Shown here piece by piece: positions 3,225 through 7,609 of a stretch of DNA of 39,110 nucleotides (position 1 is the first letter of the stretch; each line of letters starts with the position of its first letter). The notes under the pieces are model-generated. The model had not been told where the DNA came from, searched no databases, and saw only the letters and a program-made list of their open reading frames with translations. Location of the stretch: positions 29,295-68,404 of the forward strand of contig JADMJT010000001.1 of assembly GCA_018781585.1 (NCBI GenBank). Direction: 5' to 3'. The DNA comes from Burkholderiales bacterium (GTDB taxonomy: Bacteria > Pseudomonadota > Gammaproteobacteria > Burkholderiales > Thiobacteraceae). A program made the translations under genes and the position numbers.

Positions 3225-4475
3225 ATGAACGAAAAGATCGACGTCGCCGAGCTGCAAACCGGCATGTTCGTGGCCGAGCTGGATCGGCCATGGCTGGACA
3301 CGCCCTTTCTGTTCCAGGGCTTTCTCATTGAGACCGACGATGAGATCGCGCAATTGCGCCACTATTGTCAACATGTCTTGATTGACCCCCTGCGCAGCAT
3401 CGGGTGGGACGCCTGGCACGACACCCGCGAACGCAAAGAGGCGCTACGCCGCCTGGAGATGGCCCCCTTGCCGCTTTCGCTTGCAGAAGCACGCCTGGGA
3501 GGCCACCTTAATCGCTACCCTGACCTCGTCCAGCTTGAAGAAGAACTGCCCCGCGCCAAGCAAATCCACCATCAAGCGGAGCAGGCAGTGCAACAATTGT
3601 TCGAGGAGCTTCAGCAGCATGGAACCACCAACCTTGAACGGGCGCACGAGGTGATGGACGGTATGGTGGAAAGCATTATTAGCAACCCGGATGCGCTCGC
3701 CTTGCTAAGCCGCGTGAAGCGTGCCAGCACCTATGTGTATGCGCGCTCGGTCAGTGTCGCCATCAATATGCTGTTGTTCGGGCGCCATCTGGGTTTTCCG
3801 CGTGACCATATGCATCTTCTGGGTGCAGCCGGACTCTTGCTTGACGTTGGCACAGCCAAAATACCATCCGGTATTTTGAGCAAGAATGGCCGGCTCACCA
3901 CTGATGAATATGAAACCATTAAGCATCACATCCCCTTCGGCCTCGAGATGCTGCGCGAATCCAAGGGCGTATCGGAAAAACTGCTCAACATCGTCGCCTG
4001 CCATCATGAACGAGAAGATGGCAGCGGCTATCCGCATGGCCTGCGCGGCGCGCAAATTGGCGTACCGGGGAAAATGGCCGCCATCGTAGATTGCTATGAC
4101 GCGCTCACCAGCGAGCGGCCTTACGCGCGATCCTTCTCGCCTTATGAAGCGCTCCAGCATTTGTATGATTGGCGCCATCATTTGTTTCACACAGAACTGG
4201 TCGAGCAATTTGTTCAGTGTTTGGGAATTTATCCGGTCGGCAGCCTGGTGGAATTAAATTCGGGCGAAGTGGCCGTGGTATTGGCGCACAATCGGGTGCG
4301 GCGTTTGAAACCGCGCGTATTGGTGATTTTAGATGCGGCAAAACAACCCTACGGCGCACCGGTGCCCTTGGATTTGCTCACCGCGCCGAAGCGCGCGGGC
4401 GACCAATCCTACGAAATCGCCCGCGCGCTCGAGCATGGCATGTACGGCATCGATCCACGTGACTATTACCTATAG
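3225..4475 (+). CDS. DUF3391 / HD-GYP protein with altered HD pair
   Basis: A 416-residue cytoplasmic protein. Residues 1-130 match the DUF3391 module often placed before HD-GYP domains; about 150-360 is HD-GYP. Conserved parts are KIPSGILSKNGRLT, HHEREDGSGYP (260-270, GYP present) and DALTSERPY (292-300). HD-GYP enzymes hydrolyse c-di-GMP using a bimetal or trimetal centre. The usual HDIGK is LDVGT here, so the metal-binding His is Leu206 while Asp207 remains, and the usual lysine is missing. The upstream helix residue that is often His or Glu is Arg in this reading. Activity may be reduced or lost; it could be a c-di-GMP sensor. The EAL gene starts 10 bp after it, suggesting an operon. A TAATAT box lies just upstream of the start. 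Confidence 0.85.
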   Translation: MNEKIDVAELQTGMFVAELDRPWLDTPFLFQGFLIETDDEIAQLRHYCQHVLIDPLRSIGWDAWHDTRERKEALRRLEMAPLPLSLAEARLGGHLNRYPDLVQLEEELPRAKQIHHQAEQAVQQLFEELQQHGTTNLERAHEVMDGMVESIISNPDALALLSRVKRASTYVYARSVSVAINMLLFGRHLGFPRDHMHLLGAAGLLLDVGTAKIPSGILSKNGRLTTDEYETIKHHIPFGLEMLRESKGVSEKLLNIVACHHEREDGSGYPHGLRGAQIGVPGKMAAIVDCYDALTSERPYARSFSPYEALQHLYDWRHHLFHTELVEQFVQCLGIYPVGSLVELNSGEVAVVLAHNRVRRLKPRVLVILDAAKQPYGAPVPLDLLTAPKRAGDQSYEIARALEHGMYGIDPRDYYL

Positions 4476-4485
4476 AAAATCCCGC

Positions 4486-5760
4486 ATGCCCTTGATCCCG
4501 AATCACCTGATTTGCCTGGACGCCCTGGACGAGGCATTGCGAGAAGCGGCGGCCCAATCACGTCCCCTGGGCATTTGCCTACTCTGGCTCGATAGCGTTT
4601 ATCGCATCGATGCACTCTTCGGTTACCGTGCGGGCGACACGGTATGCGCCCAATCCCTGACGCACCTAAAAAGTATCCTCAAGGAAGCGGATCAAGTTTT
4701 TCGTGTCGGGCGCAGCGAGATAGCCTGCCTGCTACCCACCCTTTCGAATGAGACGCAAGCGGTGTTGGCCGCCCACAAAATCATCCGCACCCTTGGCAGC
4801 CAGCTCACGCTTGATCAATACTCGGTGCACAGCGAACCCTACGTGGGCGTCGCGCTGTTCCCGGCCCACGGTCAGGGCGCGGACACCCTGCTCCAACGCG
4901 CCAGCAGTGCGCTGCGCGAAGCGCGAATCAGAAAGGAACCCGTTTTTATTTACAGCAACGAAGCCGATACGGCAACGCAGTTACAGTTGCAGCTACAAAC
5001 TGATCTACGCCACGCGCTGGACGAAAATGTGCTCACCCTGAATCATCAACCCCAAACTGATTTACGAACTGGACGCGTGGTAGGCGTGGAGGCGCTGAGC
5101 CGGTGGCATTCGCCCCTCCGCGGCGCAGTATCACCCGCGATCTTCATCCCGGCCGCAGAAGCGGCGGGTTTGATGCACCGCCTCACCGTACGGGTCTTGA
5201 ACATGGCGCTGCGCGAGCTTCAAGAGTTGCAGCCCGCTGCTCAGGATCTGTCCATCAGCATCAATCTTTCCGCCCACGATTTGATCCAAGCCGAGCTGCC
5301 GGCGTTGCTCACGCAGGCGCTCAGCACCTGGGGCGTACCGCCTGAGCAAGTGGTGATGGAAATTACTGAAACCGCCATCATGGATGACCAGCGCGCCCGG
5401 GCGACCACGCTGGAACGTCTAAAAGAGATCGGCGTGCAATTGGCGATTGACGACTTCGGCACCGGCTATTCCTCGCTGGCGCGGCTCAAGTATTTGCCGG
5501 TGGACGAACTAAAAATAGACGTCAGCTTCATTCGGCATATGTTGCACGACATCCGCGACGAAAATATCGTGCGCTCGATCATTGATCTGGCGCATCACCT
5601 CAAGCTGCGCGTGGTAGCTGAAGGCGTGGAGGACGATGCTACGTTGCAACGTTTGATCGACATGGGTTGCGATGTAGCCCAAGGTTATTTTTTGAGCCCC
5701 CCACTGCCGTTAGAACAATGTCGATCCTGGCTAATAAAATCCGGCCTCGACTATCGATAA
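4486..5760 (+). CDS. degenerate GGDEF / intact EAL c-di-GMP phosphodiesterase
   Basis: A 424-residue cytoplasmic protein with no membrane segments. Residues about 25-165 are a GGDEF fold whose active motif is degraded (VGRSEIACLL at 74-83 instead of GGDEF), so cyclase activity is not expected; it may be regulatory. Residues about 170-420 form an EAL domain with the full catalytic set visible: VEALSRW (E202), N260, E292 in EITET, DDFGTGYSS (D322, D323), K343, E379 in AEGVE and Q399. It should therefore hydrolyse c-di-GMP to pGpG. The ATG at 4486 is 10 bp after the HD-GYP stop, and two turnover-type proteins in tandem suggest local lowering of c-di-GMP. An upstream extension of the frame into the HD-GYP gene was rejected. 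Confidence 0.88.
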   Translation: MPLIPNHLICLDALDEALREAAAQSRPLGICLLWLDSVYRIDALFGYRAGDTVCAQSLTHLKSILKEADQVFRVGRSEIACLLPTLSNETQAVLAAHKIIRTLGSQLTLDQYSVHSEPYVGVALFPAHGQGADTLLQRASSALREARIRKEPVFIYSNEADTATQLQLQLQTDLRHALDENVLTLNHQPQTDLRTGRVVGVEALSRWHSPLRGAVSPAIFIPAAEAAGLMHRLTVRVLNMALRELQELQPAAQDLSISINLSAHDLIQAELPALLTQALSTWGVPPEQVVMEITETAIMDDQRARATTLERLKEIGVQLAIDDFGTGYSSLARLKYLPVDELKIDVSFIRHMLHDIRDENIVRSIIDLAHHLKLRVVAEGVEDDATLQRLIDMGCDVAQGYFLSPPLPLEQCRSWLIKSGLDYR

Positions 5761-5826: not shown

Positions 5827-5880
5827 CCGTCATCAAACCGTCATCGATATGTCATTTCGCTGCCACCCTTTCTCCGTAAT
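5827..5880 (+). promoter_or_regulatory. Pho box array and promoter upstream of olsBA
   Basis: Four 7-bp half-sites recur with an exact 11-bp period: CCGTCAT (5827-5833), CCGTCAT (5838-5844), ATGTCAT (5849-5855) and CTGCCAC (5860-5866), each separated by 4 bp. The PhoB consensus is CTGTCAT-N4-CTGTCAT, so this reads as two tandem Pho boxes on the coding strand. A -10-like CGTAAT lies at 5875-5880, at the distance expected when the Pho box replaces the -35 element. PhoB activation in phosphate starvation is inferred from this spacing. Confidence 0.75.
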
Positions 5881-5912
5881 GTGCCCTCGTCTAAACCACG
5901 ATGAGGATCATC

Positions 5913-6668
5913 ATGCTAAGAGAAGACTATCACCTGCTGGTCGAGCGAAAAGCGCCGCGTCTGACTGTCTCGTTCGCACAAAGCGAGGAGCAGGTGCGCG
6001 AAGCTCAGCGCCTGCGCTATCAAGTGTTTTGTGAGGAAATGGGAGCGCAGATCAATACGCTGGAGCCGGGCATTGATAGGGATATTTTCGATCCCTATTG
6101 CGAACATTTACTGGTGCGTGACCATGATACCTTGGAAGTCGTCGGCACCTACCGCGTGCTGAATCCGGCGCAAGCGCGTAAGATTGGCAGTTATTATGCG
6201 GAAACGGAATTTGATCTCACTCGCCTCTCGCATCTGAGTGATCGCATGGTGGAAGTAGGGCGCTCCTGCGTCCATCCCGCGTACCGCAACGGCGCAACCA
6301 TCGCGCTACTTTGGTCGGGTGTATTAAATTACATGCGGCAACACGGCTACGATTACCTGATCGGCTGCGCCAGTATTGGCATGGCCGATGGCGGGCACAC
6401 CGCAGCCAGTATCTACCGCCGCTTGAGCCTGGAACATATGAGCCCGATTGAATGGCGGGTATTCCCGCGCAATGGGCTCTCACTGGATGCGCTGGACAGC
6501 ACCATGAACGCGCCGCTGCCGCCTTTGATTAAGGGCTATATGCGCCTGGGTTGCTATGTCTGCGGCGAGCCAGCGTGGGATCCACATTTCAACACCGCGG
6601 ATCTGCTGGTGATGCTGCCGATGTCGCTCATCGATCAACGTTATGCGAGGCATTTTTTCGAACGCTAG
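5913..6668 (+). CDS. olsB: L-ornithine N-alpha-acyltransferase (first step of ornithine lipid synthesis)
   Basis: A 251-residue GNAT-fold acyltransferase of the OlsB type, which transfers a 3-hydroxyacyl chain from acyl-ACP to the alpha-amino group of ornithine to make lyso-ornithine lipid. Visible family features are EEQVREAQRLRYQVFCEEMGA near the N-terminus, VVGTYRVL, and MVEVGRSCVHPAYRNGATIALLW, the acyl donor site region. No membrane helix is obvious, as expected for a peripheral enzyme. The ATG at 5913 has GAGG 6 bp upstream; an in-frame ATG at 5901 lacks a binding site. The acyltransferase olsA follows 74 bp later, which makes the pathway assignment stronger. Pho boxes upstream suggest induction when phosphate is scarce. 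Confidence 0.85.
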   Translation: MLREDYHLLVERKAPRLTVSFAQSEEQVREAQRLRYQVFCEEMGAQINTLEPGIDRDIFDPYCEHLLVRDHDTLEVVGTYRVLNPAQARKIGSYYAETEFDLTRLSHLSDRMVEVGRSCVHPAYRNGATIALLWSGVLNYMRQHGYDYLIGCASIGMADGGHTAASIYRRLSLEHMSPIEWRVFPRNGLSLDALDSTMNAPLPPLIKGYMRLGCYVCGEPAWDPHFNTADLLVMLPMSLIDQRYARHFFER

Positions 6669-6739
6669 TGTAGTGTTTCATTCTAAACGGTGCTTTCAGA
6701 GCCCCCCAAAAACGCCATGACCGCAATGAAACACTACAC
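6668..6739. repeat. intercistronic 15-bp inverted repeat between olsB and olsA
   Basis: GTGTAGTGTTTCATT at 6668-6682 is repeated as an exact inverse at 6725-6739, with a 42-base loop. The left arm begins on the last base of the olsB stop codon and the right arm ends 3 bp before the olsA ATG, so it fills the intergenic space. No T-run follows, so it is not a standard terminator. It may stabilise or partition the mRNA, or be a small palindromic insertion. Confidence 0.8.
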
Positions 6740-6742
6740 CCG

Positions 6743-7609
6743 ATGATAGAAACACCGACCCCTGGCGCAATTCAGCTGCTGCGCATATTTCGCTTGGTTT
6801 TGCATCTGCTGCAAGGGGTAGTAACAGCGGGCACGTTGCTGCGCTTTGCCCGCGAGCCGCTGCGCAGCCGCATCATTCGTGCTTGGGCCGCCAAACTGCT
6901 GGTCATTCTCAATATTGAAGCCCGCGTGCAAGGCAATGTACCCACGCTGGCTACCCGTGGTGTCATGTTTGTCTCGAATCATGTTTCGTGGATGGATGTT
7001 TGGCTGCTGCAGTCCGTGCGCCCAGTGCGCTTTATCTCCAAAGCCGACGTGCGCAGCTGGCCCGTGGTGGGCTATTTGGCGCAAGCAGGCGGCACCTTGT
7101 TCATCCAGCGCGAGAAGCGCCACCACACCGCCGCCATTGTGGGGCAAGCGGAAGCGGTGTTGACACAAGGCGACTGCCTCGCCTTGTTCCCGGAAGGCAC
7201 CACCACCAACGGGTTACGGCTGCGCGCCTTTCACCCTTCGCTATTTCAAGTCGCGGTCGACCAAGGCAGCGCCATTACATTGGTGACGATCCGCTATGTA
7301 TTCGAAGATGGGCGGATCGACACCGCCCCCGCCTATGCTGACGAAATCACCATGCCCGAGTCGATGCGCGCCATCTTGGCGCGGCGCAAAATTATTGCGG
7401 AAGTAAATTATTTCGATATGATAGACGCGCGCGGAAAAACTCGGCGCGCACTCGCCTTGGAAGCCGAAGCCGCTATCGCAACTGCCTTGAACTTGCCAAT
7501 CCCGCACAAGACGTCTGGAAAACCTGCCGGTCTTCCAGCCGCAGCGCCGATAACTGCCCTCCCCACAGACAGCCCGTATCCAGCGCCACATGACGGCTCC
7601 CTACATTGA
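6743..7609 (+). CDS. olsA: lyso-ornithine lipid / 1-acylglycerol-3-phosphate acyltransferase
   Basis: A 288-residue PlsC-type acyltransferase. The catalytic HX4D box is NHVSWMD near residue 80, followed by the substrate motif [11 protein letters not shown] around 150. A hydrophobic segment near residues 10-35 anchors it to the inner membrane. In operon with olsB it most likely O-acylates lyso-ornithine lipid; PlsC activity on lysophosphatidate is the alternative, since OlsA enzymes can do both. The last 45 codons (Pro/Ala-rich tail) overlap the 3' end of apaH on the other strand by 137 bp and are not part of the usual acyltransferase core. Family members are commonly 240-270 residues, so this tail is an extension. 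Confidence 0.83.

Follow-up and report, generated by a model that had tools for sequence, protein, structure and literature searches.

A predicted PhoB-activated promoter upstream of an olsB homologue in a Burkholderiales genome

Does the ladder of short repeats ahead of an olsB-like gene mark a promoter through which phosphate limitation controls ornithine-lipid synthesis, and would such control extend to the olsA-like gene that follows? We addressed this question in a 39,110-bp stretch of a Burkholderiales genome, the whole of which is hereafter called the window. The features on which the argument rests are the following:

5827-5866, + strand: Pho-box array of four 7-bp half-sites, seen in the sequence (32.2 bits as a four-site array)
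5877-5882, + strand: -10 element TAATGT, starting 10 bp past the last half-site, in the register common to phoB and pstS
5901-5906, + strand: probable Shine-Dalgarno region of olsB (ATGAGG / GAGGA), from the sequence; AGGATCATCATG is conserved in relatives
5913-6668, + strand: olsB homologue, ornithine N-acyltransferase-like (PF13444, 132 bits; best NCBIfam match OlsB)
6669-6738 (limits approximate), no strand assigned: inverted-repeat element between olsB and olsA, with arms TGTAGTGTTTCATT / AATGAAACACTACA
6743-7609, + strand: olsA homologue, lyso-ornithine-lipid O-acyltransferase-like (PF01553, 76.6 bits)

The gene pair and the half-site array

The longest olsB open reading frame starts at 5901, and its product (5901-6668) carries an Acetyltransf_5 domain. 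Translation probably begins at the ATG at 5913, because the position of 5901 is not occupied by an ATG in a relative (G006), and an AGGA lies just 5' of 5913. The domain is of the GNAT type and scores far above its cut-off of 22.4 bits. Two NCBIfam equivalog models for OlsB are the best for this protein by more than 100 bits, with scores that lie below their cut-offs (178.7 versus 320 and 174.8 versus 350). We treat the 5913-6668 product as homologous to OlsB and not as an established member of the family, with ornithine N-acylation as its predicted activity. The adjoining gene, adjacent to olsB in congeners as well, encodes a PlsC-type acyltransferase domain, and its OlsA equivalog scores (118.9 and 111.9, NCBIfam) are likewise below the cut-off of 300.

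On the other side of olsB, two genes separate it from tag, one of the HD-GYP and one of the GGDEF-EAL type (window 3225-5760). In three relatives (G001, G008 and G009) tag directly adjoins olsB, and the two c-di-GMP genes have therefore been gained or lost at this spot.

The array opens with two copies of CCGTCAT (5827-5833 and 5838-5844), followed by ATGTCAT (5849-5855) and CTGCCAC (5860-5866), all on the + strand, which is that of olsB. The half-site starts are 11 bp apart, and the 4-bp spacers read CAAA, CGAT and TTCG. The first-pass annotation had described four half-sites with an exact 11-bp period on the coding strand 5' of olsB, and each part of that description is present in the sequence, as tandem CTGTCAT-like 7-bp half-sites with 4-bp spacing.

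Could the repeat be a product of chance, or a feature without regulatory function? Scanning the window with the plain E. coli consensus dimer (at most 3 mismatches) leaves some room for this: it gives 5 matches versus 1.92 expected, a count reached in 7 of 100 shuffles, so that the enrichment is marginal and the dimer on its own is weak information. It is the ladder of sites, not the consensus dimer, that decisively settles the reality of the array. A 3-site pattern with at most 2 mismatches occurs at five places in the whole 2.84-Mb assembly: two overlapping places form the olsB array (the better with one mismatch), one is a phoB promoter (C134:24745-24773, 70 bp 5' of the phoB gene), and two are internal to open reading frames. 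The reversed control of this pattern occurs at 2 places genome-wide.

For a quantitative measure, we derived a half-site matrix by expectation-maximisation, seeded with the E. coli consensus, from 59 phoB and pstS upstream regions of this and related genomes. The phoB1 promoter was inside the training set; olsB, which was left out of training, and phoB2 and ppk1 were outside it. The olsB array scores 26.4 bits as three sites with this matrix, and the fourth site brings it to the value listed above. Within the window, 3-site matches of 11-bp period above 14 bits come from the array only (26.4 and 23.3), the best unrelated one having 13.8 bits, and no other period between 7 and 16 gives more than 20.0 bits. 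The scan with a PhoB matrix that had been called for beforehand thus leaves the array as the sole strong 3-site match in the window.

Conservation and promoter geometry

The first-pass annotation had staked its reading on conservation of the sites upstream of orthologous olsB genes. Of 41 genomes, 30 (among them that of the window) have olsB at E ≤ 0.001. Clear orthologues number 28; they span 21 families of one order and are drawn from a sample of one genome per species whose members are phylogenetically non-independent. A 3-site array with p < 0.01 relative to shuffled copies of the respective sequence (p-values bounded by 300 shuffles) precedes olsB in 23 of the 28, again counting the window's own, so the reading came through this comparison. 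The window's own family is positive throughout (8 of 8 genomes), as are 15 of the 20 others, and the carriers include a Betaproteobacteria MAG of the same genus (G003), Candidatus Nitrotoga and Rubrivivax albus. The coding strand scores above the other strand in 27 of 28 orthologues, and the window's array is the top scorer among all 28 upstream regions. The matrix scan detects no significant 3-site array 5' of olsB in the remaining 5 of 28 orthologues; the upstream regions of olsB in Acidithiobacillus and other gammaproteobacteria are mostly without a box in this register.

The position of the -10 element is equally regular. A TANNNT lies exactly 10 bp 3' of the half-site pair in 20/28 olsB, 25/30 pstS and 27/30 phoB upstream regions; the remaining gaps between 4 and 19 each account for 0 to 3 upstream regions. 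The window follows this pattern, with a -10 element at the fixed Pho-promoter distance and the box taking the place of a -35 element. A -10 had been proposed here before, as CGTAAT (5875-5880): the element is indeed present, but that reading takes the same element two bases early, and the register favors TAATGT. A joint motif of box and -10, scanned over both window strands, scores 14.5 at this site versus 7.7 for the next best.

Retention in 23 of 28 orthologues, strand bias and fixed -10 spacing all speak against the chance or non-regulatory reading. A chance repeat is contradicted by the conservation, and we give this explanation next to no weight.

PhoB and the reach of the promoter

Both cognate regulators are encoded in the genome, with two PhoB proteins above the TIGR02154 cut-off (363.6 and 361.7 versus 296.2 bits) and one PhoR above that of TIGR02966 (454.4 versus 334.2 bits). 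PstB is also present, and PstS is of the TIGR02136 type (332.7 versus 206.6 bits); as a TIGR00975 type it scores weakly. The DNA-binding domains of both PhoB proteins align over their length with 1gxp, the structure of E. coli PhoB on DNA; RTVDVHIRRLR is identical in both and in 1gxp, and the recognition helix matches. The gene phoB1 is followed by phoR, and phoB2 lies near ppk1. Boxes of 2-3 sites, again separated by 10 bp from the -10, precede phoB1, phoB2, ppk1 and pstS.

The PhoB paralogues map to C134:24001-24675 and C120:16469-17143 of the window's genome (G000), each with its own Pho box, and two congeners (G005 and G007) also have two PhoB paralogues. The box of ppk1, which encodes polyphosphate kinase, lies at C120:10910-10938 of the same genome with a 10-bp gap to TATTTT, and overlaps what is probably the start of a divergently oriented gene.

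A different OmpR/PhoB-family regulator might use the tandem array in place of PhoB. Response regulators are numerous in the genome (66 receiver-domain matches), and related regulators such as PhoP of M. tuberculosis also bind 7-bp direct repeats with 4-bp spacers (PMC4832192). However, when about 110 kb of the genome is scanned with the matrix derived from phoB and pstS, matches of at least 20 bits fall only 5' of olsB (two overlapping), phoB1, phoB2 and ppk1, and the -10 of olsB sits in exactly the register seen at phoB and pstS. We consider the involvement of another such regulator very unlikely.

PhoB control of olsB is itself very likely, because the array is conserved, the -10 register is shared and PhoB, PhoR and Pst are encoded with the same type of promoter; the earlier PhoB reading of this promoter draws support from each of these. 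With high confidence, we predict that 5827-5882 is a PhoB-activated promoter that makes ornithine lipid at low phosphate via olsB and probably olsA. Under phosphate limitation, phosphorylated PhoB would bind the four half-sites head-to-tail, with the downstream pair (5849-5866) standing in for a -35 element. PhoB on this pair would recruit RNA polymerase to the -10 TAATGT, and transcription would start about 7 bp past it, near 5889 as judged from the usual -10 spacing. The transcript would cover olsB and probably olsA, allowing phosphorus-free ornithine lipid to be produced when phosphate is scarce. The phosphate response, the binding of PhoB and activation by it, the reach of the transcript, the lipid that is made and its replacement role in the membrane are all steps that we infer. 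Several points weigh against a PhoB promoter: the 5 orthologues without a significant array, the position of OlsB and OlsA below the equivalog cut-offs, and the constitutive formation of ornithine lipids in Burkholderia s.s., some of which have predicted Pho boxes (PMC7814305). Such constitutive formation despite boxes means that a Pho box is no proof of tight phosphate control.

How far the predicted control extends depends on the junction between the two genes. In the window, olsB and olsA are 74 bp apart and the gap holds the inverted repeat, whose hairpin is strong (-24.5 kcal/mol, z -3.84). In the five other genomes of the genus that have olsB, olsA overlaps it or starts about 2-12 bp away, and the element is absent from the junction in congeners. 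Because the inverted repeat separates here two genes that are adjacent in congeners, co-control or co-transcription of olsA with olsB is probable but less certain than control of olsB. The alternative is that PhoB controls olsB alone, with olsA expressed mainly from elsewhere or dampened by the inverted repeat, so that there is no single phosphate operon. The hairpin fits this view, as does A. baumannii, where olsB is phosphate-controlled and olsA is not (PMC11828411). In Candidatus Nitrotoga, olsA lies 5' of olsB on the same strand with the box between them, and the box tracks olsB. On the other hand, the genes overlap or nearly abut in the five other genomes, and the insert leaves only a 74-bp gap. 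No U-tract follows the 6669-6738 hairpin, and the element is therefore not a typical terminator. We regard control of olsB alone as possible but doubtful. The first-pass annotation had placed olsBA as an operon under PhoB: for olsB this is supported by the conservation and the shared -10 register, while the operon part needs the caveat of the intervening repeat.

The arrangement with olsA 5' of olsB and a Pho box between them is found both in Candidatus Nitrotoga and in a Nitrosomonadales MAG (L042-L046); in these loci the box therefore follows olsB, not the gene pair. The inserted element itself is MITE-like, with arms TGTAGTGTTTCAC/T... and an interior of variable length, and one copy split the olsB-olsA junction. 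Partial copies are dispersed in the genome, and copies lie at C134:4009-4277, C78:9900-9963 and C77:7132-7316 of G000. Related element sequence occurs near phoB in G007, and probably in G005 too. A more elaborate scheme, in which the two PhoB paralogues read the four-site olsB promoter in a graded way and the insertion uncoupled olsA, giving separate control of lyso-ornithine lipid and of ornithine lipid, seems to us improbable.

Relation to known Pho-controlled ornithine-lipid genes

If olsB is PhoB-controlled as predicted, PhoB-controlled ornithine-lipid synthesis, which has been reported by prediction for Burkholderia s.l., would hold for the majority of the families sampled in this betaproteobacterial order, Candidatus Nitrotoga included. 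The promoter model, a half-site ladder followed after 10 bp by the -10, may also serve to predict which lipid genes of uncultured bacteria are under phosphate control.

The principle of PhoB-linked ornithine lipids is already known in other proteobacteria, and the window is a particularly clean case of it. The closest parallel is found in Burkholderia s.l., which are Betaproteobacteria with the same gene and a Pho box 5' of it: boxes were predicted 5' of olsB in 21 and, with a refined matrix, 43 of 43 genomes, and in P. xenovorans ornithine lipids replace PE at 0 or 0.02 mM phosphate, reported there as data not shown (PMC7814305). That work is a PSSM prediction, whereas here we describe a four-half-site ladder with a fixed -10 register across 21 families. 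In Acinetobacter baumannii, olsB likewise has a Pho box upstream and is induced by phosphate limitation, and aminolipids are PhoR-dependent (PMC11828411); its olsA is at another locus and outside phosphate control, whereas that of the window is directly 3' of olsB. Agrobacterium tumefaciens and Sinorhizobium meliloti share the OlsBA pathway and a Pho box 5' of olsB (putative in A. tumefaciens), and their ornithine lipid increases at low phosphate in a PhoB-linked manner (reviewed in PMC3972451). Unlike the window's genome, these are Alphaproteobacteria, and olsA and olsB of A. tumefaciens are non-adjacent (atu0355 and atu0344). Pho box promoters of E. coli (consensus CTGTCATNNNNCTGTCAT, as quoted in PMC11828411) have the same 7+4 direct repeat, 11-bp period and placement of the box over the -35 region, whereas the window has four half-sites, of which the first two are CCGTCAT. 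To these systems the present analysis adds the wide occurrence within the order and the precise geometry of the promoter.
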